DNA of 41,931 nt, taken from positions 1 through 41,931 of the IMG/VR virus record IMGVR_UViG_3300014962_000015. One strand, 5' to 3'. Position numbers and translations under genes: made by a program. Source of the DNA: a virus. This document shows, in pieces, positions 2,870 to 31,355 of this stretch; the first letter of the stretch is position 1; each line of letters starts with the position of its first letter. Below the pieces are notes generated by a model. It did not search any database, was not told the DNA's origin, and saw only the letters and a program-made list of their open reading frames with translations.

Positions 2870-2920
2870 TCCATGTCTAGGGCCCAGTTGCCCTGCCCCA
2901 CGCTCACGCACCGCGTGAGC
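2870..2920 (-). promoter_or_regulatory. Hairpin plus CCTAGA promoter-like element
   Basis: Between the genes at 2361-2858 and 2932-3156 lies an 8-bp hairpin (GCTCACGC at 2902-2909, loop ACC, GCGTGAGC at 2913-2920). On the minus strand GGGGCAGGG and GGGCCCTAGACATGG follow, with TAGA about 18 nt before the ATG. This is the third copy of the same arrangement in the left arm. Confidence 0.4.
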
Positions 2921-2931
2921 ATGAGACACAA

Positions 2932-3156
2932 TCACCGGGGCAACGTGGACAAGCACGAGTCGCACGACATATCTGCGAACTCGTCACTAGCGAACACCGG
3001 CACATGCTCCCGCATGAAAGTCACATAATCCCGACGCGCCACCTTGCCCGAACACTCGACACAGTACGCCGCACCCTCGAACGTCACCCCGACGATCTCC
3101 CACGCCTTCCCGTAACACGTTGAGTTGTATTCCTCGATACCCGTATCTGTAGACAT
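2932..3156 (-). CDS. 74-residue zinc-ribbon-like protein
   Basis: The start is ATG 3154-3156, preceded by two good sites (GGAGGG and GGAG). It is the first gene of this leftward cluster. Cys residues occur as a single Cys, a CVEC pair about 20 residues later and a CDSC pair near the C-terminus, which suits one structural zinc site made of the two pairs. No enzymatic motif is seen. It is likely an early protein expressed from the promoter region at 3200-3232. Confidence 0.6.
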   Translation of the reverse strand: MSTDTGIEEYNSTCYGKAWEIVGVTFEGAAYCVECSGKVARRDYVTFMREHVPVFASDEFADMSCDSCLSTLPR

Positions 3157-3199
3157 AGCTCCACCCTCCATATCGTGACCCCCTCACCGGGGATAAGTC

Positions 3200-3232
3200 A
3201 CACCCTACACCAACACCTTTCCAAGGTGTCAA
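3200..3232 (-). promoter_or_regulatory. Leftward promoter with overlapping dyad operator
   Basis: On the minus strand TTGACA (complement of 3227-3232) is followed 19 nt later by TAGGGT, which fits the actinobacterial -10 form TANNNT. A 17-nt dyad, ACACCTT-TCC-AAGGTGT (3213-3229), overlaps the -35 edge and fills the spacer, a typical repressor position. It would drive the leftward cluster that begins at 3156. The spacer is longer than the usual 17 nt, so the exact boxes are uncertain. Confidence 0.45.
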
Positions 3233-3235
3233 ACA

Positions 3236-3692
3236 CTACCGCCAACACACACCCCGAACCTATCCCACCAATAGGTTGCACCTATCGCTACTAGTTCTCC
3301 CGCAGACAACTAGATTCCCCGATCGTTCCTCCATATGGAACACTTTTCACCCCCTGCCTGGCCCGATCGGGGACCCCCTACCCCCCTGTGGACTTGTGGT
3401 GGAGTCATGCACCTAGCCCCCCTCCCCCCGCCCCCCGCGTTCGGGCGTGTCGCAGCTCGACCCGGGGGTTTTAACATGCGCGTGCCACTACATATATATC
3501 TACCGACTTTTTGTTTTGCACGAATTTTTGGTTCATTTGTGATGGGTTATGCACAGGTTTTCCTCATGGGGACAGGGGGGACAGGGGGTGTCCGTTTTGG
3601 TATGGTGTGTGTGGGGTTTTACCCCATGTTTTGTAACATCTTGGTAAACGTGTGTCCAGTTGGTGTTAAAAATCCAAGGATATATCTATGGA
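3236..3692. other. Non-coding divergent region with inverted repeats
   Basis: No credible gene is visible. It contains a 9-bp inverted repeat (CCCCGATCG at 3317-3325, CGATCGGGG at 3364-3372) enclosing a smaller GTTCC/GGAAC dyad around CCATATGG. It also holds short hairpins at 3612-3626 (TGGGG/CCCCA) and around GGACA-GGGGG-TGTCC, and repeated GGGGACAG units. From about 3480 the sequence becomes much more AT-rich. TTATGCACA at 3547-3555 matches the DnaA-box consensus TTWTNCACA. A packaging site, an origin or late-operon control are all possible; none is proven. Confidence 0.4.
3665..3692 (+). promoter_or_regulatory. Candidate rightward late promoter
   Basis: TTGGTG near 3660-3665 is followed after about 15 nt by TATATCT (about 3680-3686), just before the first hairpin of the leader. 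It is the best promoter-like sequence before the virion operon. The spacer is short, and a phage-specific sigma factor (see 36319-36981) could use different boxes, so confidence is low. Confidence 0.3.
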
Positions 3693-3820
3693 GGGTTTGA
3701 AAAACCCGACCCTGTACTGTGCCTCCCCGAAGGGGGGCTAGGGGAGGCACCCTGTGTCGCCCCAGGCCCTAAGCCTGGGGCTCCCCCGTACCGTACTCGG
3801 CAGCCTTTTAAGGGCTGCCT
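3693..3820 (+). other. Array of tandem RNA hairpins in the late leader
   Basis: Four hairpins follow one another with almost no space between them. They are GGGTTT-GAA-AAACCC (3693-3707), a 10-bp stem GTGCCTCCCC/GGGGAGGCAC (3719-3750), an 8-bp stem CCCCAGGC/GCCTGGGG (3760-3780) and a 7-bp stem GGCAGCC/GGCTGCC (3799-3819). The next hairpin (3831-3857) is the terminator listed separately. Such chains are seen in antitermination leaders and in stable small RNAs. Both are possibilities here. Confidence 0.55.
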
Positions 3821-3830
3821 CGTTCTGGGT

Positions 3831-3877
3831 AGGAGTCGCCGCCTGGCGGCGGCTCCTCCTACTTCTTTTTTTGTTTT
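3831..3877 (+). terminator. Rho-independent terminator before the terminase gene
   Basis: AGGAGTCGCCGCC (3831-3843) pairs with GGCGGCGGCTCCT (3845-3857), a 13-bp GC-rich stem with one G-T pair. It is followed at once by a T-rich run containing TTCTTTTTTTG. The orientation would stop rightward transcripts before the virion operon. A late promoter upstream would therefore need antitermination, or the terminator shields the operon from read-through. Confidence 0.6.
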
Positions 3878-3892
3878 CAAAAATCAATTCTT

Positions 3893-3944
3893 GACGACGG
3901 TTGGAACCCTTATGGGTTCCTCATGGTCATTGGACGACGGTTGG
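3893..3944. repeat. Direct repeats GACGACGGTTGG around a hairpin
   Basis: GACGACGGTTGG occurs at 3893-3904 and again at 3933-3944, 40 nt apart. Between them is a 7-bp hairpin, GGAACCC-TTAT-GGGTTCC (3903-3920). A related CGACGACGGGGG follows inside the terminase gene near 4025. Repeats next to a terminase gene can be terminase binding sites (pac or cos elements). That is an inference from position only. Confidence 0.4.
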
Positions 3945-3965
3945 GGTTGTTCACCATTGTGACGA

Positions 3966-5924
3966 ATGGTTCCCGACACGGTTCTGACGCATGTTGAGGG
4001 TTTCGGTTTTTTCCACAGGGTTTCGACGACGGGGGTGTTTTGGGTGTCTCGTGGTCGGAAGGTTGATGACACGGCGGCTGAGGCGAAGCTGCGGTTTTTG
4101 GAGGCGTTTCAGACGGGGGCTGGGGTCGCTGAGGCGGTGAAGGCGTGTGGCCGGTCCCGTTCGACGTATGAGTTGTGGCGGCGTACTGACCCTGAGTTTG
4201 TGGCTTCGGTGGAGCGGATCAGGTCGATCCGTGAGGGTGCGGAGTTTCATGTCCGTGAGGAACTGTCGTTCCCTGAGTTTTCGGAGCGGTTTCTTGGGCA
4301 GCGGGTGTTCCCGCATATGCAGAACGTGGTGGACCTGATTGAGGGGAATCAGCCTTCTTGGGTGCATCCGAATATGGTGCATGAGCCTGGTGAGCCGGAT
4401 TTGATCATGGTGAACATGCCGCCGGAGCATGCGAAGACCACGAGCATCACGATCAACTACATCACGTATCGGATTGCGATGGACCCGAATATTCGGGTGC
4501 TGATTGTGTCGAAGACGCAGGCGATGGCGAAGAAGATGCTGTATGCGATTAAGACTCGCCTGACGCATCCCCGTTATGCGGACATGATCACGTCGTATGC
4601 CCCGCCTGGTGGGTTCGATGGGAACTCTGAAGCGTGGAACGCGGAGATGATTTACATCTCGGATGACGCACGCGATTCGGGTGAGAAAGACCCGACAGTG
4701 CAGGCGTTGGGTATTCGTGGGCATGTGTATGGTGCGCGTGCGGATTTGATTGTGCTGGATGACTGCGTCGATTTGACGAACGCGCACGAGTACGACAAGC
4801 AGATCGACTGGATTCAGTCCGAGGTGATCTCCCGTATTTCCTCGAACGGTGCCCTCCTGGTGGTGGGTACGCGGCTTTCCAGTAAGGATTTGTATTCGGA
4901 GCTGCGGGACCCGTCCCGCTACCCAGATGAAGTGTCCCCGTGGACGTACCTGGCGATGCCTGCCGTGTTGGATTTCGCGGACAAGCCCGAGGACTGGGTG
5001 ACACTGTGGCCTAAGTCGAACCAGCCCGAAGCCGGGTCGAAGGGTGAGCAACTGGAACCTGACGAGAACGGCCTGTTCCCGAAATGGGACGGTCCGCGTT
5101 TGTTTAAGAAACGCGCACGAGTGTCCCCGCGCTCGTGGTCGATGGTGTACATGCAACGCCAAGTCGCGGAAGACTCAATCTTCTCCCCTGACGCGGTGAA
5201 ACACGCAATCAACGGTAACCGGATGGTCGGCCCGATCCCGAAAGGGATGGTGGGGCAACGCCACTTCGGGATGGACGGCCTGATCATTCTTGCCGGCCTG
5301 GACCCCGCAACGTCGGGTCATACTGCTGCCGTGTGCGGCGGGATCGACCCGAACACTGGCAAACGCTACATCCTCGACTTGTGGAACAAGGCTGGGATGA
5401 AACCCGACGAGATCCGTTCCGTCATCAAGAACTGGACCGACAAGTACAACATCACTGAGTGGCGTATCGAACGCAACGGTTTCCAAGGGTTCTTGGTGCA
5501 TGACCGTGAAATCGGTGAATACCTCGCGAACCGTGGCACCCTGATCCGACCGCACTTCACGGGCGCGAACAAACACGATGAGGGTTTCGGTGTCGCCGCA
5601 ATGTCGATGCTGTTTGACGGATACGAATCCGACACCCAGTTGATTGAGCTACCCAGCACGCACGGGTCTGAGGCAGCGAAAGCACTCGTGGAGCAGTTGG
5701 TGACCTGGTCACCTGACGCACCGAAGTCACAAAAAACTGACCTTGTGATGGCGATGTGGTTCTTCGAGTTGGCGTGCCGGGACCGGGTGCAGTTGTTCGG
5801 GAACGCGAACCGTGCCCACGCAAGCAAATCCATGTTCCTCACCCCGTGGGATATGCGGCAACAGCAGGTCGTGAACTTGACCCAGATGGAAGCGCAAGGG
5901 AATTGGCAACCAATCACAGCTTAA
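3966..5924 (+). CDS. terL: Terminase large subunit with N-terminal TerS-like HTH
   Basis: The 652-residue motor protein packages DNA into the prohead. Residues about 39-94 form a helix-turn-helix region of the small-terminase type (LRFLEAF, GVAEAVKACGRSRSTYELWRR, DPEF). The ATPase follows: a variant Walker A PPEHAKTTS near 152-160, Walker B ADLIVLDD near 260 and a coupling motif LLVVGTR near 300. The RNase H-like nuclease has LAGLDPATSG (Asp about 446), WRIERNG (Glu about 501) and KTDLVMAMW (Asp about 592). The usual Walker A is PPGHGKT or similar, so PPEHAKT is unusual. No separate small subunit gene is present. The ATG at 3966 lacks a clear ribosome site, and a GTG around 4020-4050 is a possible alternative start. 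Confidence 0.93.
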   Translation: MVPDTVLTHVEGFGFFHRVSTTGVFWVSRGRKVDDTAAEAKLRFLEAFQTGAGVAEAVKACGRSRSTYELWRRTDPEFVASVERIRSIREGAEFHVREELSFPEFSERFLGQRVFPHMQNVVDLIEGNQPSWVHPNMVHEPGEPDLIMVNMPPEHAKTTSITINYITYRIAMDPNIRVLIVSKTQAMAKKMLYAIKTRLTHPRYADMITSYAPPGGFDGNSEAWNAEMIYISDDARDSGEKDPTVQALGIRGHVYGARADLIVLDDCVDLTNAHEYDKQIDWIQSEVISRISSNGALLVVGTRLSSKDLYSELRDPSRYPDEVSPWTYLAMPAVLDFADKPEDWVTLWPKSNQPEAGSKGEQLEPDENGLFPKWDGPRLFKKRARVSPRSWSMVYMQRQVAEDSIFSPDAVKHAINGNRMVGPIPKGMVGQRHFGMDGLIILAGLDPATSGHTAAVCGGIDPNTGKRYILDLWNKAGMKPDEIRSVIKNWTDKYNITEWRIERNGFQGFLVHDREIGEYLANRGTLIRPHFTGANKHDEGFGVAAMSMLFDGYESDTQLIELPSTHGSEAAKALVEQLVTWSPDAPKSQKTDLVMAMWFFELACRDRVQLFGNANRAHASKSMFLTPWDMRQQQVVNLTQMEAQGNWQPITA

Positions 5925-5936
5925 AGGAGGCGGCTC

Positions 5937-7841
5937 GTGAGCATATGGAATGAGTCGCTTGAAGACGAAGGGCACGACTACGACGATCCACGCGGCATGA
6001 ACCTGCGTGAGATCCGTGCCCTGTACGACCGGACGAAGGCACGCTACGCGGACCGTGAGGCACGCATGCAGCAAACCCTCGCTGTCCGGCAAGGACGCAT
6101 GCGTGACGTGTTCCCCGACCTGTTCCCCGAGGGTCCGTTTGACCGGGGCATTGTCGCGAACATGGTGGATGTCGCAGCACGCGACACCAGCGAGGTTCTC
6201 GCTCCCCTACCAGCATTCAACTGTGCGTCCGCAACGAACGTGTCCGACACGTCACGATCATTCGCGGATAAACGCACCAAAATCGTCAACGGCTACGTTG
6301 ACTTCTCCGACCTGCAACGCCAAATGTATACGGCGGCTGACAGGTACGTGTCCTATGGCTTCACCCCCGGCATTGTTGAAATCGACGTGGACGAGAAGAT
6401 GCCACGAATCCGTTTCTTGGATTCGATCGGCGCGTTCCCCGTGTTCAACAGGTGGGGTGAAACGTCTGCCGCGTTTTTTACTTTCTTTAAAACGCGGGAC
6501 GAACTGATAGCGGCCTACCCCGACAAGGCATCCATCCTCGAAAAACCCAACCGGACCGGTGGGAATGACCTGATCGAGGTTGTCCGTTATCACGACAAGT
6601 ACGTGGACATGCTGTTCATGCCACGCGAGGCAGGCATGGTGCTGCAATCGGTGAAGAACCCGGTTGGTGAGTGCCTGGTTGAATGGATTCAACGCCCCGG
6701 TGTGGATGATGACGCGCACGGACAATTCGATGACGTGCTTGCCGTACAGGTCGCGAAGTCACGTTTCGCGTTGCTGTCACTGGAAGCAGCACAAAAGTCG
6801 GTGCAGGCACCGATCGTGCTGCCACCTGACGCGCAAGAACTACCGCTCGGTCCTGACGCGGTGATCCGCACCGCAAACGGGCAAGCGGTGCGCCGCGTCC
6901 CGATTGAGGTGCCGCAGGCAGCGTTCGCGCAACAATCCATTTTGGATCAGGAGCTGCGGCAAGGGTCACGCTACCCGGAGGTGCGCGGCGGGAACACGGA
7001 CGCGAGCATCGTCACGGGTCGCGGCGTACAGGCCCTCATGTCAGGGTTTGATTCGCAGATCCGCACCGCCCAGGCCATGTTTGCGGTCGGGTTGCGGAAC
7101 CTGATCCGTAAAGCCTTATACGTCGATGAGATGTTGTGGCCTACGGAGACGAAAGAGATCCGTGGCAACGCGGAAGGCACCCCTTACTCGATCAAGTACA
7201 GACCCGATCGTGACATCAAGGGCGACTACACCGTCGATGTGACCTATGGACTCATGGCAGGTTTGGACCCGAACCGTGCATTGGTGTTCGGGTTGCAGGC
7301 TCGCGGTGACAAACTGATTTCCCGTGACTTCCTGCGCCGGCAAATGCCGTTCGCGTTGGATGCGTCTGAGGAAGAATCAAAAGTCGATATTGAAGAAATG
7401 CGTGACGCGATCAAACAAGCCGTCGCAGGTTACGCGCAAGCCATCCCTGTGCTTGCACAAAACGGGCAAGACCCGGGCGAAGTGCTTCAACGCTTGTCGA
7501 AAATCATTGTCGGACTCCAAAAGGGTTCGATGATTGAAGACATTGTGGGTGAGGCGTTTGCGCCTGAACCTGCCCCCCAAGTTCCCGCACCGCCCGGAGT
7601 TGAGTCCCCTGGTGGAGTGGCAGATACCGGAATGGGCCTCCCAGGTGAGGTGCCTCCGGGCGGTGGCGGGTCTACGGAAGGGTTGTCCGCTGCGACAGGT
7701 CAGCTCCGTGGTGTCGCCCCCGGACAAGCAGGACTTCCCCCAGGTGGCAGACCTGATCTTCAAACGCTGATGGCTGGCCTGGGTTCAAACGGTCAACCCC
7801 AACTTGCCGCTGGCGTATCCCGCCGACTCCCGATTGGTTAG
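5937..7841 (+). CDS. Portal protein
   Basis: The 634-residue protein starts at GTG 5937, 6 nt after AAAGGAGG. Its place directly after the terminase, its length and its mixed alpha/beta sequence with a long C-terminal helical part fit the portal dodecamer at the capsid vertex through which DNA moves. The C-terminal 80 residues are rich in Pro and Gly (PEPAPQVPAPPGVESPGG) and probably disordered. I assign it from context and general composition rather than a single motif. It is probably translationally coupled to the terminase (12-nt gap). Confidence 0.85.
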   Translation: MSIWNESLEDEGHDYDDPRGMNLREIRALYDRTKARYADREARMQQTLAVRQGRMRDVFPDLFPEGPFDRGIVANMVDVAARDTSEVLAPLPAFNCASATNVSDTSRSFADKRTKIVNGYVDFSDLQRQMYTAADRYVSYGFTPGIVEIDVDEKMPRIRFLDSIGAFPVFNRWGETSAAFFTFFKTRDELIAAYPDKASILEKPNRTGGNDLIEVVRYHDKYVDMLFMPREAGMVLQSVKNPVGECLVEWIQRPGVDDDAHGQFDDVLAVQVAKSRFALLSLEAAQKSVQAPIVLPPDAQELPLGPDAVIRTANGQAVRRVPIEVPQAAFAQQSILDQELRQGSRYPEVRGGNTDASIVTGRGVQALMSGFDSQIRTAQAMFAVGLRNLIRKALYVDEMLWPTETKEIRGNAEGTPYSIKYRPDRDIKGDYTVDVTYGLMAGLDPNRALVFGLQARGDKLISRDFLRRQMPFALDASEEESKVDIEEMRDAIKQAVAGYAQAIPVLAQNGQDPGEVLQRLSKIIVGLQKGSMIEDIVGEAFAPEPAPQVPAPPGVESPGGVADTGMGLPGEVPPGGGGSTEGLSAATGQLRGVAPGQAGLPPGGRPDLQTLMAGLGSNGQPQLAAGVSRRLPIG

Positions 7842-7849
7842 GAAACTGA

Positions 7850-8056
7850 ATGTGTAACACCTGTGGCTGCGGTCACGTTATGACTCCCGCAATGCAGCAA
7901 GCCGCTGTCAAAGGCTCAATGGGTCTTGGTATTGCGGAAGAAGAACGCTACCCGAACGGGATGACCGAGCAGTACATCTCGAAGGAAGCACAACGGATGC
8001 ACGAACGCACGGAATCCTCGTATGAGGCTGCGCGGGAAGCCGCGTCTTACAAGTAA
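7850..8056 (+). CDS. Small Cys-knuckle protein, 68 residues
   Basis: It starts at ATG 7850, 8 nt after the portal stop. The N-terminus MCNTCGCGHVM holds three closely spaced Cys and a His that could bind zinc. The rest is a charged helix (EEERYPNGMTEQYISKEAQRM). No family is recognised. It sits between portal and internal virion proteins, so a minor virion or assembly role is plausible but unproven. Confidence 0.6.
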   Translation: MCNTCGCGHVMTPAMQQAAVKGSMGLGIAEEERYPNGMTEQYISKEAQRMHERTESSYEAAREAASYK

Positions 8057-8087
8057 ATATGACCCACGTAGCGAAGGAAGTTATCTC

Positions 8088-8219
8088 ATGGCACAGCCAG
8101 GTAAGGGCGGTCACGCACCCGTCAACACGTCACAGCCAATCGACGGTCGCAAGGCAAGCAAGCCGAGCGGTGGTCAGATCGTTGCCCCGGTCCATCCGGG
8201 CGGCACTCGCGGCAAGTAG
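8088..8219 (+). CDS. 43-residue basic hypothetical protein
   Basis: The ATG at 8088 follows GAAGGAAG. The peptide is Gly-, Lys- and Pro-rich (MAQPGKGGHAPVNTSQPIDG, then APVHPGGTRGK) and looks disordered. Gene size and spacing match its neighbours in the virion operon. No known family is recognised. Confidence 0.5.
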   Translation: MAQPGKGGHAPVNTSQPIDGRKASKPSGGQIVAPVHPGGTRGK

Positions 8220-8224
8220 CCGCA

Positions 8225-8434
8225 ATGTCCCGCGACATGTTAGTGACGATGCGCTGGGACGATCTTGAAGTAACAGTGAACGCCGAAGGCGTGTCGTACA
8301 CGCCTGATGTTTTTGATGACATCGGTCGGAACATGTTGCTTTGGATGCACGACTTGATCGTGATGGCGCACCATTTGGGCGCACCTCCCTCTCGTGAGGA
8401 TGAGGATGAAGAAGTTGGTATTGACGAGGAGTAG
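8225..8434 (+). CDS. 69-residue acidic hypothetical protein
   Basis: It starts at ATG 8225. The N-terminal half is beta-like (MLVTMRWDDLEVTVNAEGVSY), followed by a hydrophobic helix (IGRNMLLWMHDLIVMAH). The tail is strongly acidic (EDEDEEVGIDEE). Acidic tails are common in small phage assembly or chaperone proteins. No specific match is recognised. Confidence 0.6.
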   Translation: MSRDMLVTMRWDDLEVTVNAEGVSYTPDVFDDIGRNMLLWMHDLIVMAHHLGAPPSREDEDEEVGIDEE

Positions 8435-8436
8435 GT

Positions 8437-8886
8437 ATGGCTGCAAACGGGCATGGTGGGAAACGCACTCCGCGTAACCCCGCACCAGTCAGCGGCCCTG
8501 GTTCTTTGTCACGTCGCACGGACGGCAAGCAGGGGGCACAGTACGTGTCTGGCATGCCGTATGGCGAAGGTCAGGACTTCTACGACTTGCAGACTTCTGC
8601 GAGAATGAACGAGTCTGGTCCGGCGGTGCAGCCGGCAGTGAAATCGCAGGGACCTGCGGCTCCCCCGCAGCAGGTGACCCCGTTGTTCGCTCCTACGGAG
8701 CGTCCCAACGAGCCGATTACTGCTGGCGCACCGTTCGGTCCAGGCCCAGGACCCGCACAACAGCCACCTGTGTCGAAGTTTGCACCAATCGTCAAGTACC
8801 TCCCAGCTTTGGAGGAGGCAACGAAGTGGCAGGACGCACCTGAAAACTTTCGTGCCCTCGTGAGGTTCTTGCAGGGGCAACGTTGA
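8437..8886 (+). CDS. Proline-rich hypothetical virion-region protein
   Basis: The 149-residue protein starts at ATG 8437, 2 nt after the previous stop. It is largely disordered: Gly, Arg, Pro and Gln dominate residues 1-110 (GPGSLSRRTDGKQG, GPGPGPAQQPP). A short helical C-terminus (IVKYLPALEEATKWQDAPE) may be a docking helix. It overlaps the next gene by 4 nt (TTGA). No family is recognised. Confidence 0.6.
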   Translation: MAANGHGGKRTPRNPAPVSGPGSLSRRTDGKQGAQYVSGMPYGEGQDFYDLQTSARMNESGPAVQPAVKSQGPAAPPQQVTPLFAPTERPNEPITAGAPFGPGPGPAQQPPVSKFAPIVKYLPALEEATKWQDAPENFRALVRFLQGQR

Positions 8887-9089
8887 CCAAACGACAGACT
8901 CAACATCCGTCCGTATGGCACCCGTTGAGTGTCTACGACAATTTCACCGCCGCCGCTGACGCTCTCGGGTTTGAGAACGCAGACGTTGCTTGGGGTTTAG
9001 CGAAGGTCCGATGGGAATCGGTTGAGGACCGCGAAGCGTTCTTGCAGGCATTGACGGCACCAAAGTCAAGGGATGTCTTCAATGGCTAA
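8883..9089 (+). CDS. 68-residue hypothetical protein
   Basis: It uses a TTG start at 8883 that overlaps the previous stop (TTGA), which implies coupled translation. The protein is alpha-helical (YDNFTAAADALGFENADVAWGLAKVRWESVEDREAFLQAL). Its end overlaps the start of the giant virion protein gene. A small helical protein encoded just before a very large virion protein may be an assembly partner; this is inference. Confidence 0.6.
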   Translation: MTKRQTQHPSVWHPLSVYDNFTAAADALGFENADVAWGLAKVRWESVEDREAFLQALTAPKSRDVFNG

Positions 9090-12000
9090 CTTCATTGAGG
9101 ACCTGATTGCTGGTACCCCAAATGAGAAAACGGGTGAAAACGACGGTGGTCTAGCGGGTGCCCTTGACGCGATCACCCCGGACCCTGGAACGCCGCTTGC
9201 GAATTTCCGTGACACGGTCATGGATAACACGCCGTTGCGTGCGGTCAAAGAAGCAGGAAACCTTGCCATCAAGACGATGGACTTTTGGGATCAGTACGTT
9301 ATCTCGCGTCCATTCTCAACGGCAGCACAAGCGATCAGCCCGTCAGGTATCGGATACAACCCGCTGTACCGCGACGGGGTGCAGTTCGATGATTTTCGGA
9401 AGATGTGGAACGCTTCCGAATACATTTCCCCAGGGCGTGCCGGTATCACGAACTGGGGTTCCGACCTTGCCAGTATCGGTATCAACGGTGACTGGAACAA
9501 ATTTGCGTACCAAAACGGGTATGACCCGTATGCGATGGGTAAAGACGCAACCGAAGAAGCTTGGGATTCATCCCCGCTAGGCACTATTGGTTCCCTGTCC
9601 CTTGACGCGATGTTTCAAATCCTTGTCGGTGGCAAGGGAGTAAACGCAGCAGCGAAAGGCGCAAAACGCGCACTTGGTCTTTCGACTGACATTGCAAATG
9701 CTCGTGACCTGTCAAAGGTTGCTACCACGATTGACAGTCACCTCGACTGGGTTGACTCCGCTGGATCGACCGGTTCACCGTCCGTGTGGGGTCAGCACAT
9801 TGTTGATCTTGCAAACGAGACTGAGTTCTCAAAAGTGTTCTCCAACCCGATGATCAACAAGTACACGAAACTTGGATCGGCAAAGCAGATCACGGTTGCG
9901 AACCTGGTTACGAAAGCGTCAGATCCGCGCATGGTTCGGGACATCATTCTTGCCGATAAGGGTGACCCGATGGCTATCGGTCGTCTTTTCCAAAAGGCTC
10001 CTGACCATGTGTGGTCGCTCTCCGATATGAACGGTGCGATGCGTGCAAAGTTCATGGAGGGTGGGCAGTGGCATCCGAACGCTGATGAAGTTGACATCAT
10101 CAAGCAGACGTTTGATTCAGCTTTGGAACGTGATGATTTTTACCGTCAGGTCCGTGATGCTTTTACTGGGACATCTGGCACGGGTGAGATTTCTTCGCTG
10201 ACCCGCAACTCAACCACCGTGTCAATGAGTGGTGTTGCTGGCAAGGCTGAGCGGTGGTTATACAACCAGATTCAGGGAATGAACACCGGAACTGACCACA
10301 TGGCGTTTATCCCGCTTGGCAATTCGAGTGTTGCCACGGCTGGTAGTGCGCTGCTTGCTTGGGTTGGTGGTCGTAAACCGCTGAACGCGGTGACCATTTC
10401 TGGTACTCGACCTAATGAAGTCATTGACGAAATGATGGCTTACGCGCAGTCGTCACCTGTGCTGCGTGGTAACAAGACAGTCACGGTGCTTCCGATGGTT
10501 CGTGATGAGTTTGGCAACTTGGTGGAGTCGGCTCCGGTGAGGATGTCGGCTAATGCGTGGCGTTCAGACATGATGGCCCGTATTGGTGCAGCAATGTCGT
10601 CTCGCACACCAGAGGCTTCCGTGACTGGCGTGGTGCGTGACTTAGAGGCCGAGATCATCTCTATGCACTCGTTCCGCTACAAGATTGACCCGAAGACCAC
10701 GCGCACGATTGCGAACGGGCTACAAGAGGCTCGTGATACTGCGATTGATTCCGTGGCAAAAGACGGATTCTTCATTGATGACGTTCACGGTCGAGTGTTT
10801 GTTGATCCCGTGTTTCGTCGGCAACTCGCAAACCAAGTGAATTTGATTTCGCTTCGCGATTTTGACCACAGCATGAAGATGCAATCGTCCGTGGTTGGTG
10901 GGGTTTCGCGTTTTGGCGAGCGTGCCACGTACAACATGGCGAATGTTGCAGATACCGTGTTGAAGTATTTCCGCACTATGACTCTGTTCAAGCCAGGGTA
11001 CGTGCCGAAGAACTCCATTGTGGAACCTGGCATTTCTTCGCTGCTGGCACACGGAACGATTCTTGCCACGGATGGACCGGTCAACAGTACGGGACGTTTC
11101 CTGGTGAATAGATCACGAATGTTGCGTCAAATGGGATACGGGACGATGGACCGCGTGCCGTTCCTAAACGTTGGCGTAAGGCGTAGTGGTGCGGAGATCG
11201 CTGAGCTGCACTCGCAGCGTCAAATGCTGCTGCAACTGCTTGACATGGATGCTCGCGACCTCGACAACTTCAAGGCCGGTGTGATGTCGCCGTCGCAGCA
11301 GCGCATGTATGAGGCTACTGCGAAGAATTCGTATCGCGAGTTGCGTGACCAGTTGAAGGTTCTTGAAACGCAACTAGATGAGTCTGACCCGATATGGCGT
11401 GAGGTTGAGGAGGTTCCGACATACGCACAGTTGAGCGGTCGGCTGGATGAACTTGACCGGATCGTGAACCGTGGCCCCGAGTACATTGATGGGTTGAAGC
11501 GCAGTCGAGATGGAATTGTGGCTCGCGCGGAAAGCCGCACTGTTTCGGAATCGGAATCTATCAACAACAAGATTGCTCAACTACAGGCGCAACTTGATGA
11601 AGTTGATGCTGAGTGGAAACGGCTTCACGATTCATATCCTGGTGGAACCGAAACATTCAGTACCACTCGTGGACTGGCAAGCAAAGAGGAACGACTTGCC
11701 GCTATTGAGTCTGAGATTGCTGCCGTTCGATCTGAACGCAATACGCTTCGTGCAGCATATGAATCGAAGTTGGCTGAACTTGGACCTGATCACCGCGATG
11801 TGCTGAAAGCCAAAGGTGAATTGAGTTCGGCGCAACGCCGGATACAGATTCTTGCCCGTAGGCGAGCAAAAGCCAAGAAGACCGACGAGTTCACCAATGA
11901 TGTATCCATTGTTGGCGGTCCGGCTGATGTGACACCAGAAAAGCTCACGGCGAAGGCCCGTGATCTTGGTGGATCAGCGATGCGGCGACATCGTCAATCG

Positions 12001-14850
12001 CTACTTGAACAAATGGATGCGTTGCTGGAGCGTCGTAAGACATTTGATGGCGCAGAGTCTGAACGTCCAGTCTTGTTTTTGGGACAGGAACAAGCCGAGA
12101 TTGACCGCCTTGATGGACTGATTAGTATTGCTGAGCGGTACAACAACGGTGATTTGGACTTGTCGGCAGCAGTTGGCTCTCTACGCACTAAGTTGGACGA
12201 TATTCGTAGCCGCACCGATGCTCTGCACGAAGGTGTGACCGCTGAACGTCAAGCCTGGTATGACGAACTTATGTCGCTTGATGCGCGTACCGCAAAGTTA
12301 CGGAAGAAGAACGCTGGGCAGTTAAGTCGCCGCGAGAAGGCGGCACAACGCAAACTCTCCGGTGAGTCGTATTTCCGTATCGGTAACGATGGTGAGATCA
12401 CTATCCCCCGCGTGTTCAACGAGGGTGAGTTCGGTGAGGCAATGCGGGTTGAATCCTCGTCCGGCTTGACCACATCGTTGACGTTGAACCCAGCAAACTA
12501 CGGGACTGGTGCAATATCCCGCCTGATTCGTTCCGGTGGCATTGATTCGATTGACCCTTCCGATCCGCTGTACTTCAAGGAAATGGCACATATCGCGAAC
12601 CGTCAGGTTCGAGGCGACAAGTTTGCAACCTTGATCCTTGAAGGTGCCGATAATGCTGCGATCCGTAAATGGTTCAAGACCCCCGAGGGTCGCCGTTACA
12701 TGGATCAAATGGGCTGGAAGTCGAGCGAACTTGATGCGCGTGTTGTTGGCTCTAAATCGGCCCGTCCGTTAGCGGACACCGATAAGACTGCAAAGCATCC
12801 AGGGTCGCGGTTTGTGAAGCGAGGCACACCGAAGATTGAGGTGTTTGAGGACGGCATCATTGACCGTAACCGTCAACTCTTGAACGCCTACTTCCCAAGT
12901 CGTGAAGTGCAGCAGCGTCTCCTTGCGGAGAACGATGTGACTCCTGGCGAACTGGAGAAGATGCTTGCCGGGAACGAGAACCTGTCGCCGGTTCACGCCG
13001 GCGAACTGGTGTTTGACGGGAACCGTTGGTCCAAGACTGGTGCCTATCTCAACCGTGCGATGGAAGCCGTATGGCGTGGATTAGCGGCAAACCCTGAATC
13101 ACGTTTCGGACGTTGGCCTTTCCTTGATCGTCAGTTTGAGATGAACATGAAGGCTGATGTGGCGTTTATGCGCTCCCAGGGTCACGAGCTGACTGACGAG
13201 TTGGTGAACAATCTTCGCCACGGTGCGGCAGCGAGAGCGTTGAAGGAAGCGGAGAATACGTTCTACAACATTCGCCGTTACTCAAACCCAGCGTATGCGT
13301 TGCGTTTCATTACGGGCTTCCCAGGCGCGTACTTCAACTCAATCTACCGCTATGCACGGCTTGCCTACCGTAATCCCGGTAACGCGCTCGTAGTGTCTAA
13401 CGCTTGGTCTGACGGTTTGTACAAGTCGTTCGGTATCGACGAGAACGGTGACCCTACGGATGACCCGACCAAGGTTGAGGCGTTTGCGTTCACAATTCCT
13501 GACCCGTTGGCTGATTCCGTTTCTTTGGATAAGAACATCAAGATGTCAACTAAGGGCTGGGAGTTTGCCCTGAACCCAATGACGGCGATGCCGTTCGTGG
13601 TGATGCCAGTCGATTCGGTGTTGATGTCTGTGCCAACCGCGAATCAATGGTTGAAGGACAACATTGGCGACGACCTGTATTCGTTCTTGTTCCCGTTTGG
13701 TCGCCCAGATACGGAACCGACGTTCGGTGTTGGGCCACTCAATTTTGATCCGTGGATTCCGTCTTACTTTGTAGACGCAAAGAAGTCCATTGATGAAATG
13801 GAGCAGGACCGTATTCAGTCAACAAACATCATTTTCCAGTATCGGATGTGGCAGTACCGAAACGGGATGATCAAGACGGCCCCGACACCAATCTCGGCGG
13901 CTCGCGAGTCTGAGGGTTTTTGGCGGCTCCGCGTGGCAACAAAGTTCTTGACTTCTGGTGGGTTTGCAATGAACCCGATTGGTCAGAACTATGTTGATGC
14001 GTGGAATGAGGTTCATGCCGCAACTGGTTTTGATACGAAACTTGCTAAGCAAAAGTTCCTTGAAATGTACGGCGCACCAGCGGAAGTGTTCACGTACTCA
14101 ACTTCAAAGAACCGTGCAGGTATGCCGTACACGGTTGAGGCGCAGCGCAGGCTTGAACAGTTTCCTGACCTGATGAACGATCTGCGTGAGTTGAACCCGG
14201 ATGATCCTCGGGCCACCGTGTCTTTGATTTTCGGTGATGCTCAGGGAGAGTTTGATCCTGTGGTGTACGACTCAATGGCACGCAACAGTATCCCTGGTGA
14301 GACTGAACCGATCCGTTCCAAGATGGACCCGTACCAGTTGGCTGACAAGATTGCCACTGACTCGGCGTGGCAGTTGTATAACGCTTCCCGCGCGAAGATT
14401 GATGCGATGGTGATGCAGTATGGATATTCGTCGCTGGAAGTGAAGGAAGCTGAGTGGATCAAGTCACAGTGGAAGAAGTGGCTGACTGATTTCAAGGCTG
14501 ATCCTGACAACGCACAATGGCTTGCAGAATATGAAACTCGGGAGTCTGGTCAGCCGTTCCGTGTGATTAATGGCATGAACAAGGTGCTTGGTGATTCCAA
14601 GTTTACTCGCGTGTACGGCAACTCTGCGGCATACAAGACTATGCGTGACTATTTGACGGAGCGCAGCGAGATTCTTGCCATGTATGAAGCGGCAACGACC
14701 TCTGATGAGAAGACTCGGATCGCTGCTGGCTGGGATCAGTATGTGCGGCAATGGTTCATGCCAATGAACTCGTTCTTCTCTGACACGTATTCACGCTACC
14801 TCGATGGTGGTCGTGACCTGGAAAACAAGAGGGTTTTGGATAATGATTGA
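9082..14850 (+). CDS. Giant internal virion or ejection protein candidate
   Basis: This protein has 1922 residues from ATG 9082, or three more from ATG 9073. It is the largest gene in the window. The N-terminal 500 residues are mixed with many Gly and Asn. A long coiled-coil region spans about residues 705-930, with a second about 970-1080 (QSLLEQMDALLERRKTFDG). The C-terminal third is helical and aromatic-rich (YNIRRYSNPAYALRFITGF, GAYFNSIYRYARLAYRNPG). I see no peptidase or lysozyme motif. Its length, coiled coils and position before scaffold and capsid fit a large internal protein ejected with the DNA, as in other podoviruses. A tape-measure role is unlikely, because no tail tube or assembly chaperone genes flank it. 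Confidence 0.75.
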   Translation: MANFIEDLIAGTPNEKTGENDGGLAGALDAITPDPGTPLANFRDTVMDNTPLRAVKEAGNLAIKTMDFWDQYVISRPFSTAAQAISPSGIGYNPLYRDGVQFDDFRKMWNASEYISPGRAGITNWGSDLASIGINGDWNKFAYQNGYDPYAMGKDATEEAWDSSPLGTIGSLSLDAMFQILVGGKGVNAAAKGAKRALGLSTDIANARDLSKVATTIDSHLDWVDSAGSTGSPSVWGQHIVDLANETEFSKVFSNPMINKYTKLGSAKQITVANLVTKASDPRMVRDIILADKGDPMAIGRLFQKAPDHVWSLSDMNGAMRAKFMEGGQWHPNADEVDIIKQTFDSALERDDFYRQVRDAFTGTSGTGEISSLTRNSTTVSMSGVAGKAERWLYNQIQGMNTGTDHMAFIPLGNSSVATAGSALLAWVGGRKPLNAVTISGTRPNEVIDEMMAYAQSSPVLRGNKTVTVLPMVRDEFGNLVESAPVRMSANAWRSDMMARIGAAMSSRTPEASVTGVVRDLEAEIISMHSFRYKIDPKTTRTIANGLQEARDTAIDSVAKDGFFIDDVHGRVFVDPVFRRQLANQVNLISLRDFDHSMKMQSSVVGGVSRFGERATYNMANVADTVLKYFRTMTLFKPGYVPKNSIVEPGISSLLAHGTILATDGPVNSTGRFLVNRSRMLRQMGYGTMDRVPFLNVGVRRSGAEIAELHSQRQMLLQLLDMDARDLDNFKAGVMSPSQQRMYEATAKNSYRELRDQLKVLETQLDESDPIWREVEEVPTYAQLSGRLDELDRIVNRGPEYIDGLKRSRDGIVARAESRTVSESESINNKIAQLQAQLDEVDAEWKRLHDSYPGGTETFSTTRGLASKEERLAAIESEIAAVRSERNTLRAAYESKLAELGPDHRDVLKAKGELSSAQRRIQILARRRAKAKKTDEFTNDVSIVGGPADVTPEKLTAKARDLGGSAMRRHRQSLLEQMDALLERRKTFDGAESERPVLFLGQEQAEIDRLDGLISIAERYNNGDLDLSAAVGSLRTKLDDIRSRTDALHEGVTAERQAWYDELMSLDARTAKLRKKNAGQLSRREKAAQRKLSGESYFRIGNDGEITIPRVFNEGEFGEAMRVESSSGLTTSLTLNPANYGTGAISRLIRSGGIDSIDPSDPLYFKEMAHIANRQVRGDKFATLILEGADNAAIRKWFKTPEGRRYMDQMGWKSSELDARVVGSKSARPLADTDKTAKHPGSRFVKRGTPKIEVFEDGIIDRNRQLLNAYFPSREVQQRLLAENDVTPGELEKMLAGNENLSPVHAGELVFDGNRWSKTGAYLNRAMEAVWRGLAANPESRFGRWPFLDRQFEMNMKADVAFMRSQGHELTDELVNNLRHGAAARALKEAENTFYNIRRYSNPAYALRFITGFPGAYFNSIYRYARLAYRNPGNALVVSNAWSDGLYKSFGIDENGDPTDDPTKVEAFAFTIPDPLADSVSLDKNIKMSTKGWEFALNPMTAMPFVVMPVDSVLMSVPTANQWLKDNIGDDLYSFLFPFGRPDTEPTFGVGPLNFDPWIPSYFVDAKKSIDEMEQDRIQSTNIIFQYRMWQYRNGMIKTAPTPISAARESEGFWRLRVATKFLTSGGFAMNPIGQNYVDAWNEVHAATGFDTKLAKQKFLEMYGAPAEVFTYSTSKNRAGMPYTVEAQRRLEQFPDLMNDLRELNPDDPRATVSLIFGDAQGEFDPVVYDSMARNSIPGETEPIRSKMDPYQLADKIATDSAWQLYNASRAKIDAMVMQYGYSSLEVKEAEWIKSQWKKWLTDFKADPDNAQWLAEYETRESGQPFRVINGMNKVLGDSKFTRVYGNSAAYKTMRDYLTERSEILAMYEAATTSDEKTRIAAGWDQYVRQWFMPMNSFFSDTYSRYLDGGRDLENKRVLDND

Positions 14851-15550
14851 ACTACCTAACGGCACTGTTCTTGGTGTGCAATCAATCCCTGGTCGCGACA
14901 ATTTCAATCAGAATCGTCCTCCCGCCAAAGAAGTTATTCAGATCACCGTTCCGGGTGGGCCAAACGGTGGAAATCCACCTGTGCAAGATTCTCAGTATTA
15001 TTGGAATGGCACCACCACAAGTCCGCTTGCGAACGTAAATATCGACTGGGCCGATTTGTCCATCAAGGATAAGAAGTGGTGGACGAGTCAGGCTAAGGTC
15101 CGATATGGCGGTGATCCACGGTATGTACAATGGGCACCAGGGTTCTTTGCGGACGCTGTATCAATGTCTGCTCAATACTATGCCAACAATCAACAGGTGA
15201 CCCCCCAGGAAGCTGCAAAGAAGTTCCTTGAATTGCAAAAGCAAGCAGGTAGCGGTTCATCTTCTGGCGGTGGTGGTGGTGGTGGTTCTGCCACCCCGAC
15301 CGTGTCAGCCCAGAACATGCACCGCCTGGTAGATCAGACGACGCAGCAATTTTTGGGCCGTGAAGCCACAAATGCTGAGGCGAAGGCGTTTACAAAGGAT
15401 GTACGCCAGTCGCTTTCGTCTAATCCGAAGAACACGGACCCGACGTTCATGGCTGAGGAGTTCGCGAAGAACACTCCAGAAGCGACCACGTATGCGGCAA
15501 ACAATTACATGAAGGTGTTCTTGCAGTCCCTTGGAGGTTTGGGTGGCTAA
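14843..15550 (+). CDS. Internal virion protein candidate (235 residues)
   Basis: The ATG at 14843 lies inside the last codons of the giant gene (8-nt overlap), so translation is coupled. The N-terminus (MIELPNGTVLGVQSIPGRDN) is beta-like. The middle has a Ser/Gly linker (residues about 135-150, SGSSSGGGGGGGSATP). The C-terminus is a helical domain (MHRLVDQTTQQFLGREATNA). It probably works with the giant protein and the two following genes inside the capsid or tail. This is inferred from gene order. Confidence 0.6.
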   Translation: MIELPNGTVLGVQSIPGRDNFNQNRPPAKEVIQITVPGGPNGGNPPVQDSQYYWNGTTTSPLANVNIDWADLSIKDKKWWTSQAKVRYGGDPRYVQWAPGFFADAVSMSAQYYANNQQVTPQEAAKKFLELQKQAGSGSSSGGGGGGGSATPTVSAQNMHRLVDQTTQQFLGREATNAEAKAFTKDVRQSLSSNPKNTDPTFMAEEFAKNTPEATTYAANNYMKVFLQSLGGLGG

Positions 15551-16631
15551 GCGGGGGTTTGCACAGAAGGCAGCGAACAAGGCTGTCCGTGAGGCGAGGC
15601 AGGCTCGACGGGTCGCTAGGCAGACTGCGGGTGGTGCTGATGACGCGCAGGCTCGGAGGGAGCTGCGTCGGGCACGGAATCAGCGTCAGGATCTGATTGA
15701 GGCACGGAAGTCTGGTGATCAAGCAGCGGTCACGGAGGCTCGTGACGCGATCCTTGAAAAGTATTACGCGCAGTTCGGTTGGGCGCAGGACACGATCAAC
15801 GCGAACGACGAGCTGAAGGGTTTGTTCCGTCAGGCAGTAATGCAGGGCTGGACGGATCAAGAGTTTCAGAACAAGATTTTCCAGTCAAAGTGGTATGACG
15901 AGTCTGGTTCTGATGCTCGTAAAGCGTTCGCGTTGGAGCATGGCGCGTCGAGTGCTGACTGGCAGGTTGCGCTCACGGATGCGACTGACGCGGTTCGTAT
16001 TGCTGCGACGAACGCTGGCGTGCAGGTTGATGAGACGCAACTGGATGCTCTCGCGCACGAGTATTTGTATGGCGGTTGGGCGAAGAACCCTGACCGGATG
16101 AGTAAGGCTCTGGCAGCGAAGTTCACGGGCACGGACGCTTCGACGGGTGAGGGTGACTTCACTGCGACGGGTGACCCTGGCACGTATGTGAACAAGTTGA
16201 AGACTCTTGCACAGTTGAATGGTGTGTCGATGCGTGACTCGTGGTATCAGGAGGCTGCACAAGCGTTGATCACGAATCCTGATGCTTTGGCTGATTATGA
16301 GCAGTCGATTCGGAATGTTGCTGCGACAACGTATGGGCCGTATGCGGAGGAGATTAAGTCGGGTCGGATGACGACGACTGATCTTGCTGCGGGGTATATC
16401 AACGCGATGCGGACTACGTTGGAGTTGGATAACGTTGATGTGTTTGATAACACGATTCAGAAGGCTTTGACGGGTGTGACTGACTCAAATGGGAAGCAGT
16501 CGGTGATGAACATGTATGACTTTAAGCGCATGTTGCGTCAGGACCCGCGTTGGAAGCAGACGGATAATGCGTATGAGACGTATTCGCGTGTGTCGTCTGG
16601 TCTTGCTCGTGCGTTTGGGGTGAGTATCTGA
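15543..16631 (+). CDS. Internal virion protein candidate (362 residues)
   Basis: I chose GTG 15543, because GGAGG ends 5 nt upstream and the in-frame TTG at 15531 lies on top of that site. The first 70 residues are very basic and Ala/Arg-rich (VREARQARRVARQTAGG), which would suit DNA contact. The rest is helical, with repeated Asp/Ala-rich segments (LFRQAVMQGWTDQEFQNKIF). No enzyme motif is recognised. The stop overlaps the next start (TGATG). Confidence 0.6.
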   Translation: MAKRGFAQKAANKAVREARQARRVARQTAGGADDAQARRELRRARNQRQDLIEARKSGDQAAVTEARDAILEKYYAQFGWAQDTINANDELKGLFRQAVMQGWTDQEFQNKIFQSKWYDESGSDARKAFALEHGASSADWQVALTDATDAVRIAATNAGVQVDETQLDALAHEYLYGGWAKNPDRMSKALAAKFTGTDASTGEGDFTATGDPGTYVNKLKTLAQLNGVSMRDSWYQEAAQALITNPDALADYEQSIRNVAATTYGPYAEEIKSGRMTTTDLAAGYINAMRTTLELDNVDVFDNTIQKALTGVTDSNGKQSVMNMYDFKRMLRQDPRWKQTDNAYETYSRVSSGLARAFGVSI

Positions 16632-29181: not shown

Positions 29182-29303
29182 GTGACACCCTACCCAGATG
29201 CCGTTTAACGGCGATTTCAGGCCCGTAGACAGGGTTTTACTGGCTCCTGGTATACAGACAGGGTGACACCTTTCTAACGTCTTAGAGCGGCTGTAATTGA
29301 GAG
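29182..29303. other. Intergenic stretch with GTGACACC repeats
   Basis: This 120-nt stretch after the nozzle gene has no gene. GGTGACACC occurs near both ends (about 29181 and 29271), and AGACAGGGT is repeated near 29228 and 29255. The terminator follows. No function is evident. Confidence 0.3.
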
Positions 29304-29338
29304 AACCCCCCGAAGGATGATTGGTCCTTCGGGGGGTT
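29304..29338. terminator. Bidirectional intrinsic terminator
   Basis: A 14-bp perfect stem (AACCCCCCGAAGGA at 29304-29317, loop TGATTGG, TCCTTCGGGGGGTT at 29325-29338) is followed by TTCTTTCTG on the plus strand. It lies between the converging virion operon and integrase operon, so it should stop transcription from both sides. Confidence 0.85.
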
Positions 29339-29350
29339 TCTTTCTGCTTT

Positions 29351-29584
29351 CTACAGGTTGTCCTCAGTAATCGTGGTCACCCGCATCCGATGCTGGGGTC
29401 TCACGTTGTTGATTTTCGCCCGTCGCCCCATCTCCCGCAGGTCACCGAGCCTGGAGTCGTAGCACCGTTCACACATGTCGAGTTCCCACGGGGCACCCGC
29501 TTTGTAATTCCACACGACCGTGAGGGTTTGCACATTGTCTTCGCTTCGGCACAGGTCACACATGAGCCGCTCGATCTTCGCCAC
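29351..29584 (-). CDS. Lsr2-like zinc protein
   Basis: The 77-residue protein starts at GTG 29584, with CTGGAGGTGA upstream, and overlaps the integrase end by 29 nt. It has two CxxC pairs (CDLC near residue 9 and CERC near residue 39). It also has the middle pattern TLTVVWNYKAGAPWELDMC followed by DLREMGRRA, which resembles the N-terminal dimerisation part of Lsr2 (a strand, W/Y-E-I/L-D-L, helix, GRR). Actinobacterial Lsr2 silences AT-rich DNA. Here it lacks the AT-hook C-terminus and may instead regulate excision or modulate host Lsr2. Confidence 0.6.
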   Translation of the reverse strand: MAKIERLMCDLCRSEDNVQTLTVVWNYKAGAPWELDMCERCYDSRLGDLREMGRRAKINNVRPQHRMRVTTITEDNL

Positions 29585-30608
29585 CGTCGATCACCTCCAG
29601 GCCAGGTTTACCGAACACGTTCGGGAACATGGGTTTGCCTGCCCACGTCTCATCGCGTTCCAACTTATCAAGATTCATCCCCGTATAGATCTCAGTCGTC
29701 TTCACTGAGGCGTGTCCCAGCATTGCTTGAACCCTGCCGAGGGCACGATCATAGCCTTCGCCACGCAGTTGCTGTACGGCTGCGGCAGCACCAGACCTAC
29801 GCAGGGAGTGCATGCCTTGCCCTGACGTTTCGTACCCCAACGTTTTCATGGCTCGTTTGATGGGGCGGTAGATCTGTACGGTTTTCTTTGTGGGCAGCAG
29901 CGGCATGAGAGCACCAGGGTTGGGTGCGAGGCGGTGCGTGAGTGGGTCTTTGAGCATCGGCATGGGGCCGAATCGTGGGATGACGTACCAGCGTGGGTCG
30001 AGGAAGTCGGTGTTCATCATGCGCCGGTAGTGGTTGAACCATTCGACCATCTCTGTGCGGAGCTCAGCGGTGAGCGGCAGCATGTCGTGTTGGTCGGTTT
30101 TGATCCGGTAAATATCGACCCGATTGTTTTTGAAGTCGATGTCTGCGATCCGCAGGTTCGCGATCTCTGAGGCTCGGCAGAACGTGAACAGTCCCAGGGC
30201 GACACAGGCACGGTCCCGTGGGTGGTACTCCCCCGCGACTTGGAGCAGGCGTGGGAAGTCTTCGGGTTCGATCCAGACTTTCTTGGCTTTCGGGACCCGC
30301 AGGTTCTCAAACTCCACGGTTGGGTTGAGGAGCGGGTTGATGTATTGCCGGCGTGCCGCCCAGTTGAAGAACCCTTTCAAAGCTGTCATGTACACGTTCT
30401 TGGTTTGGGGGCACCAGTTGGACTGCCCGAACAGGATGTCGAAGTCGGTTGGCGTGATCCGATGGAGATAGGTGTTACCCATTTGTTTCGTGAGGGCGAC
30501 TAGCGGTGATCGGTGGTTGATCACGGTCCGCTGTTTGCGGCCCTTGTTGACCAGGTATTTCAGGTACTCGGTTTGTGCCTCAACCAGGGTGATGTGCTTG
30601 ATGTTCAT
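29556..30608 (-). CDS. int: Tyrosine integrase
   Basis: The 350-residue recombinase starts at ATG 30608, 7 nt after CGGAGG. It has an N-terminal SAM-like core-binding region (LVNKGRKQRTVINHRSPLVA, GFFNWAARRQYINP). The catalytic domain shows the Arg of CRASEIANLRIADID, the HSLRRSGAAAA box with the H-x-x-R pair and the LGHASVKTTEIYTGM box with His and the nucleophilic Tyr. It recombines attP with a host tRNA gene. The adjacent tRNA-type core upstream of its start supports this. Confidence 0.93.
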   Translation of the reverse strand: MNIKHITLVEAQTEYLKYLVNKGRKQRTVINHRSPLVALTKQMGNTYLHRITPTDFDILFGQSNWCPQTKNVYMTALKGFFNWAARRQYINPLLNPTVEFENLRVPKAKKVWIEPEDFPRLLQVAGEYHPRDRACVALGLFTFCRASEIANLRIADIDFKNNRVDIYRIKTDQHDMLPLTAELRTEMVEWFNHYRRMMNTDFLDPRWYVIPRFGPMPMLKDPLTHRLAPNPGALMPLLPTKKTVQIYRPIKRAMKTLGYETSGQGMHSLRRSGAAAAVQQLRGEGYDRALGRVQAMLGHASVKTTEIYTGMNLDKLERDETWAGKPMFPNVFGKPGLEVIDGGEDRAAHV

Positions 30609-30679
30609 GTCTGCCTCCGTTAGGTGACTTGTGTTTTTGACACTATACATGTTTGACCTGGCTAACACCATAACTAAAC
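30609..30679. promoter_or_regulatory. Integrase upstream region
   Basis: Between integrase and the attP core lie TTGACA (30637-30642), TATACAT (30645-30651) and TTTGACC, arranged as possible promoter elements on either strand. TTGACC occurs again near 30801. These short repeats may be arm-type integrase sites. No single promoter can be fixed. Confidence 0.35.
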
Positions 30680-30719
30680 CCTGACTTGGGTTGGGGTTCA
30701 AGTCCCCCCTCGGACACCA
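30680..30719. other. attP core, tRNA 3' end with CCA
   Basis: TGGGG (30692-30696), TTCAAGT loop (30697-30703) and CCCCC form a T-arm with four perfect G-C pairs. The acceptor strand CTCGGAC (30709-30715), A discriminator and CCA (30717-30719) follow. No 5' half of a tRNA is nearby, as expected for an attP core copied from the end of a host tRNA gene. Integration would restore the host tRNA. The tRNA identity is not readable from this piece. Confidence 0.75.
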
Positions 30720-30720
30720 A

Positions 30721-30793
30721 GGTTAAGAACAGGCCCCTGACCTGGGCTTTTACTCCTCCGAATCGGTGCTTTATAAGTACGTTTTTCTTAACC
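30721..30793. repeat. Inverted repeats flanking attP
   Basis: GGTTAAG (30721-30727) and CTTAACC (30787-30793) form a 7-bp inverted repeat in the arm between the attP core and the regulator promoter. They may be arm-type integrase or excision-factor sites; this is inferred from position. Confidence 0.35.
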
Positions 30794-30809
30794 TTCAGAT
30801 TTGACCGAT

Positions 30810-30842
30810 CAGTGATTGACACTGTGTGTGGGGTGGTATCAC
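30810..30842 (+). promoter_or_regulatory. Regulator promoter with dyad operator
   Basis: TTGACA (30816-30821) is followed after 15 nt by TATCAC (30837-30842). A dyad CAGTG-ATTGA-CACTG (30810-30824) overlaps the -35 box. The same CAGTxATTGAC core occurs in the spacer of the promoter at 31583. A short leader with AAGGAG leads to the ATG at 30896. An autoregulating repressor is the simplest reading. Confidence 0.5.
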
Positions 30843-30895
30843 CATTGTCTAAGATGTTAGTAGGCCAGGACAGGGCCAGAAGGAGCGTCTCGACA

Positions 30896-31342: not shown

Positions 31343-31355
31343 CCCCCAGATTGTC

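Follow-up and report, generated by a model that had tools for sequence, protein, structure and literature searches.

A probable structured leader RNA ahead of the late terL operon in a large group of phages, with a possible antitermination-like action

The late leader of phage lambda transcribed from pR′ (6S RNA, ending at tR′) is nearly 200 nt in length and is closed by an intrinsic terminator that precedes the late genes; its control involves the protein Q and a sigma-dependent pause. A 5′ stem-loop of the ompA type stabilizes an mRNA against decay that depends upon the 5′ end. The put RNA of phage HK022 is located in early leaders and comprises about 70 nt with two bulged stem-loops in a V-shaped fold; it reads through terminators by way of the zinc-binding domain of the RNA polymerase β′ subunit (PMC9378689). 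The LoaP-dependent dfn leader of Bacillus velezensis contains a UNCG hairpin and a terminator, and requires the NusG paralogue LoaP (PMC12691694).

The DNA analysed here (the window) is a virus record of 41,931 bases, and the features discussed are collected in Table 1. The genes to the left of 3171 are on the minus strand. To the right lies an array of five perfect or near-perfect stems (3693–3862). The original prediction of five consecutive hairpins, a T-rich tail and a sixth stem at 3903–3920 is borne out by the sequence and by folding, and its stem lengths of 6, 10, 8, 7 and 13 bp stand, except that hairpin 3 has 9 bp and not 8. Hairpin 1 is lengthened by G.A, A.G and G-C pairs at 3690–3692/3708–3710, and the whole element extends from 3690 to 3710. 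A direct repeat, GACGACGGTTGG, is located on either side of hairpin 6 (3893–3904 and 3933–3944), and part of a third copy is found near 4024.

Table 1. Features of the window (all coordinates refer to the 41,931-base record)
Feature	Position	Strand	Description
Upstream element GACCCGGGGGTTTTAAC and first TATATATA	3464–3500	+	In relatives, recurs before the box at a distance of 106–221 nt
GTGTCC half-site	3652–3657	+	Located at −35/−36 relative to the G that follows the box; counterpart of TGTCC in relatives
Box TATATCTATGGAGGG	3681–3695	+	Variant of TATATATAGTGAGGG in the window; probably the core of a late promoter; array begins inside the box
Hairpin 1	3693–3698/3702–3707	+	6 bp, loop GAA; read from the sequence, then folded
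Hairpin 2	3719–3728/3741–3750	+	10 bp, 12-nt loop GAAGGGGGGCTA closed by C-G
Hairpin 3	3759–3767/3773–3781	+	9 bp, loop CCTAA
Hairpin 4	3799–3805/3813–3819	+	7 bp, up to 9 with loop-side pairs; loop TTTTAAG
Hairpin 5	about 3829–3862	+	At least 13 pairs, loop TGG; terminator scan gives 12 pairs at 3831–3857
T-tract TTCTTTTTTTGTTTT	3863–3877	+	Directly 3′ of hairpin 5
Hairpin 5 with T-tract	3829–3877	+	Strong intrinsic terminator between array and TerL (sequence, folding, terminator scan)
Hairpin 6	3903–3909/3914–3920	+	7 bp, loop TTAT
TerL	4035–5924	+	First late-operon gene; start probably at GTG 4035 (ORF opens at 3966)
Terminator closing the late operon	29303–29339	+	Intrinsic, strong (terminator scan)
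Sigma-like protein	36319–36978	+	Candidate specificity factor for the box; phrog_354 sigma-K, E = 1.2e-15

On the 3′ side of the array the gene order is TerL, portal, a 1925-aa protein, capsid, SU10-type adaptor and tail-fibre genes, and the array therefore lies in the leader of the late operon. The label of virion operon given originally was apt, both for these genes and for the terminator at their end. GTG 4035 is the probable start of TerL because homology to relatives begins at residues 20–30 of the longer ORF, and the array begins 277–345 nt before the gene. Of the terminator-like sites within 2900–16000, hairpin 5 with its tail ranks first. The 1925-aa protein (9073–14850, plus strand) has no Pfam match, and its C-terminal section matches phrog_10618 (function unknown); Streptomyces phage Manuel has a 1646-aa counterpart at the same place. 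Just past the late operon a tyrosine integrase (PF00589, E = 6.6e-18) is encoded on the minus strand at 29556–30698. By contrast, Abafar and other cultured Beephvirinae are described as virulent (PMC11536984).

The 251-nt segment from 3680 to 3930 folds with −124.4 kcal/mol, compared with −90.5 ± 5.0 kcal/mol for dinucleotide shuffles (z = −6.7, 0 of 200). When 464 stretches, each of 180 nt, were scanned, first and second place went to the pair covering the array (z = −7.7 and −5.7), the median being −0.45. With the gene order, these results uphold the proposal of structure beyond chance in the leader of a long late operon. The minus strand of the array folds equally well (z = −8.2); since any inverted repeat folds on both strands, folding alone gives no strand, and it is the T-tract, the gene order and the relatives that indicate the plus strand. 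The third most structured stretch of 180 nt in the record is 31321–31500 (z = −5.5), located between 30686–31342 and 31619–31849.

A search with TerL returned 57 IMG/VR loci with up to 71% identity, and a TerL profile returned more than 600 stretches, of which 80 were taken in. The TerL of the Beephvirinae, podoviruses of Streptomyces, is about 47% identical, while no TerL relatives were found among 84,980 bacterial and archaeal genomes. Relatives with 43–71% TerL identity carry hairpin arrays at the matching place that are similarly built, but unalignable with that of the window, and the same is true of the arrays before TerL in the Beephvirinae phages Manuel, FlowerPower and HaugeAnator. Leaders fold more strongly than the DNA just upstream of them, with median z of −1.99 versus −0.64 for 93 and 89 sequences, some of the loci having been chosen via the box described below. 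The window leader itself gave no blastn match among phages, and no close relative of it was found in the collections searched with blastn and with a window-specific 14-mer that occurs in 102 contigs.

In most relatives terL is preceded by a box, TATATATAG(TGA)GGG, and the hairpins begin at its GAGGG. The exact 15-mer TATATATAGTGAGGG was found in 69 contigs in a gene-blind scan of 2.9 million viral contigs, and in 39 of these (a tally that takes in L010, L014, L015 and L056) a member of the TerL family lies 155–745 nt downstream in the same sense. The control was the 14-mer from the window's own variant of the box, for which 0 of 102 contigs had TerL. Among loci found by TerL only, the box is recognisable in 79 of 101, at a median of 213 nt (161–677) before the TerL match; the 22 others comprise variants missed by the pattern, such as L142, and loci that truly lack a box, such as L131, L178 and L207. 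The arrangement of box followed by hairpin 1, with the array within a few hundred nucleotides of terL and in the same sense, is present in the window, with a variant box. Two related loci with 45% TerL identity (L045 and L046) have a tRNA-like sequence directly upstream of terL in place of box and array.

The box is the probable core of a late promoter. TGTCC occurs at −36/−35 in 38 of 92 leaders, and GGAC[AG] at −17/−16 in 29 of 92. Pairing of the flanks of hairpin 1 suggests that the putative RNA starts at or before the G that follows TATATA; were the box a −10 element of the usual sigma-70 kind, transcription would begin a few bases further on, within the stem of hairpin 1. Further upstream, the element at 3464–3500 is present in 49 of the 79 TerL-found loci that have a box. 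It has the form CCC(A/G)GGG(T)nTTTAAA, with a second TATATATA some 30 nt later, and its sequence is more conserved than the hairpins; in Beephvirinae it is located about 235 nt from the genome end. It could possibly be a first promoter (P1), a packaging site or an origin.

Each of the 13 related genomes tested, among them those of Beephvirinae, encodes a sigma-like protein, and all 13 members match phrog_354; the profile of the protein also matches region 4 of FliA (E = 2.3e-7). Its gene adjoins that of a metallophosphoesterase (35558–36331), and it has the same neighbours in Streptomyces phage Manuel. A search for relatives using the sigma-like protein returned no loci. The protein may read the box, though the two may simply belong to one core genome. 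PF00940 of T7-like polymerases was absent from all 14 records, a search in which the control genomes were equally silent. Neither the conserved box that opens the array nor a phage sigma-like factor figured in the original prediction.

A lack of compensatory changes in relatives was named as refuting the original prediction. Such changes are found in three lineages, though the hairpins of the window have no alignable relative. An alignment of 17 leaders from the lineage with 57–60% TerL identity has double-sided changes in 11 of its 24 consensus pairs, and 99.0% of cells are paired; cells with double changes number 51, compared with 14.5 in shuffles, which leave relatedness in. The covariation score is 0.363 versus 0.136 when shuffled and 0.03–0.08 when partners are slid by one to three columns, a control that takes relatedness out, with the reservation that a structure derived from the consensus favours itself somewhat in such scoring. 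Hairpin 2 of this lineage, which is smeared by the alignment, is a perfect stem of 6–9 bp in 17 of 17 leaders, with about 11 different stem sequences. Double changes are present in 12 of 39 pairs in Beephvirinae, and in 9 of 28 pairs in the lineages nearest to the window, where the alignment is loose. The changes point firmly to selection of the leaders as folded RNA in two lineages, and give a fair indication of it in the third. For the window's own leader, selection as RNA is suggested by position, box and architecture. Single mismatches in the interior of long stems (seven G.T and three A.C) are too few to decide the strand. A covariance model of one lineage gave confident matches within its own lineage only and did not reach the window. 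Its sub-threshold matches on the plus strand, which extend to the leaders of other lineages, start at the boxes of L196, L181, L193, L014, L048, L092, L195 and L206; they are suggestive only, since the box itself adds to the score.

In many lineages hairpin 1 has the form GTGA-stem-loop-stem-GAAC with unrelated stems, and in the RNA tandem G.A pairs allow GUGA to pair with GAAC. The flank GGA..GAC of hairpin 1 in the window is the counterpart of GUGA..GAAC with U-A swapped for G-C, and in L195, L196 and L206 the flank is fully Watson–Crick (GTAGAGGGGC..GCCCCTCTAC). GAAC occurs within 70 nt of GTGA in 19 cases, compared with 10.8 expected, a modest excess; that the stems directly before GAAC do pair is the stronger point. 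Loops of 12 nt, of which hairpin 2 of the window has one, are over-represented (54 in leaders versus 12 in the upstream control). Most are closed by C-G and either begin with UC and end with CC, or both begin and end with GA. Complementarity of the kissing type between large loops is no greater than random. Some lineages keep internal motifs, for example CCTAACC..GGTTAGG.

Two more extended elements were noted in individual lineages. Six leaders (L032, L073, L077, L086, L088 and L191) share CAGCAGG-GACC-GGUG-UA-GGUC-CACC-AGAGGCGUAG some 50–120 nt after the box; this can form a compact pseudoknot, and occurs in versions with GACC/GGUC, ACCC/GGGU and GGCC/GGCC. The leaders of L001–L018 contain a conserved GGGG...GGGAC-U-CCCC...GUCCC, a possible pseudoknot, that ends in CTCATGGTNCGTCCC. 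In the window there is a partial CCTCATGGTC at 3919–3928 that may be compared with this end.

A conserved, structured late leader RNA ahead of terL is very probable. It is most likely a group-wide leader of the late terL-portal-capsid operon, having a common position and architecture in a large group of phages that includes the Beephvirinae. The best explanation overall is a structured 5′ late leader with an antitermination-like action, which we advance tentatively. Transcription would start at or near the TATATATAG box, probably by host RNA polymerase that carries the sigma-like factor of the phage. As it emerges, the RNA would fold first into the 5′-proximal hairpin, and then into the chain of hairpins before terL. 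Acting in cis upon its own long transcript, as we infer, the folded leader would keep the late transcription complex productive, in the window by passing or gating the terminator at 3829–3877.

Granted the conserved leader, the antitermination-like step is plausible, if somewhat less likely than not. If the box drives the operon, the window's terminator must be passed or gated, which fits such a role; the operon, some 25 kb in length, has to be expressed, yet its first gene is separated from the array by a strong terminator. Against this, most relatives have no T-tract after the array, and passing a leader terminator is therefore not the shared function. A hairpin with a T-rich tail is present in the leaders of few of 93 relatives, so that the shared role would be broader: it could lie in long-range processivity, or in protecting the transcript from Rho or at its 5′ end. 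We prefer long-range processivity with modest confidence, with 5′ stabilization close behind. No protein like Q, N or NusG/LoaP was found in Pfam and PHROG scans of about 35 ORFs of the window.

A possible but on balance doubtful alternative is that the long late mRNA is shielded from Rho and from 5′-end-dependent decay by the hairpin at its extreme 5′ end together with those that follow, termination at intrinsic terminators being unaffected. This would be consistent with a hairpin 1 that lies at the putative 5′ end in many lineages, as GTGA-stem-GAAC with differing stems, and with sequence that turns over while architecture stays; nor does it require a terminator. One hairpin would suffice for the purpose, however, and the preferred 12-nt loop and the internal motifs conserved in some lineages suggest recognition by something.

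It is improbable that the array forms a stable small RNA of its own, some 180 nt long, that ends at the T-tract at 3863–3877 and acts in trans, as a packaging RNA like the pRNA of phi29 or a product of the 6S type. The window's unit adjoins terminase; it folds compactly and possesses both a box and a terminator, like the lambda 6S leader. But most relatives have no terminator at that place, there is no match in Rfam, the phi29 pRNA family included, and loop-loop complementarity does not exceed random. The reading as a stable phage RNA offered by the original prediction is thus weakened for the group, and keeps in its favour the terminator of the window's unit.

Still less probably, the inverted repeats could belong to a DNA element (a packaging or cos-type site, a replication origin or an operator array) and merely resemble RNA hairpins. 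In Beephvirinae records the array is found 0.25–0.65 kb from the left end, adjoining terL, and the minus strand folds equally well. Yet the stems switch letters while pairing is kept, leaving no conserved arm sequence for a protein to read, the loops vary between lineages, and the excess of G.T over A.C among interior mismatches weakly favours RNA of the plus strand. Chance or lineage-specific junk palindromes beside an ordinary terminator, to which the want of an alignable relative might point, are very improbable for an array that ranks first and second of 464 stretches and sits exactly where relatives carry covarying arrays.

Returning to the leader with antitermination-like action, we think it rather unlikely, but conceivable, that it constitutes a new class: an RNA-based processive antiterminator or transcript-protecting leader of a large podovirus-type clade, in which a phage sigma factor opens the TATATATAG late promoter and the first RNA made, a series of hairpins that evolve fast and among which a 12-nt loop recurs, would alter the polymerase for the length of the late operon. 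No description of the leader was found in the open-access literature searched, within which the late-gene control of these phages is unmapped. The combination of covarying leader, box and sigma-like gene provides a model that can be tested in the cultured Streptomyces phages Manuel, WRightOn, HaugeAnator, FlowerPower and Abafar. If antitermination is correct, RNA-only antiterminators reach well beyond the lambdoid phages; if stabilization is correct, the survival of very long late mRNAs is accounted for. The structures of these leaders are missing from Rfam, searches of which at both gathering and relaxed thresholds gave no family for the window (the best was 6C, on the minus strand, with 26.5 bits against 47).

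The leader resembles several known systems in part. Like the phi29 pRNA it would be a structured phage RNA of similar length near packaging genes, but it matches no Rfam family, most relatives give no sign of a separate RNA, and the phage group is different. It shares with ompA a hairpin at or very near the putative 5′ end, and differs in having several further hairpins, compensatory evolution and a preferred loop size. As in the dfn leader, a hairpin and then an intrinsic terminator precede the first gene of a long operon; the UNCG hairpin is not found in the window leader, however, nor is a LoaP-like protein among the approximately 35 ORFs scanned. A terminator closes a short late leader in the window, as in that of lambda pR′, and in few of 93 relatives. 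Most relatives are without it, no Q-like protein was found in the ORFs scanned, and there is an array of hairpins instead of a pause leader. The original prediction had named put as a model for a cis-acting antiterminator. The two have in common promoter-proximal stem-loops in the leader of a phage operon, a probable action in cis, and the lack of a known protein partner here. They differ in that put is lambdoid with no sequence relation found to the window leader, which has four to six mostly perfect stems over at least 170 nt, in a late operon and with a terminator in the leader that is absent from most relatives. On the features tested the window leader is thus not a member of the put type, although by analogy it may perhaps work like put.
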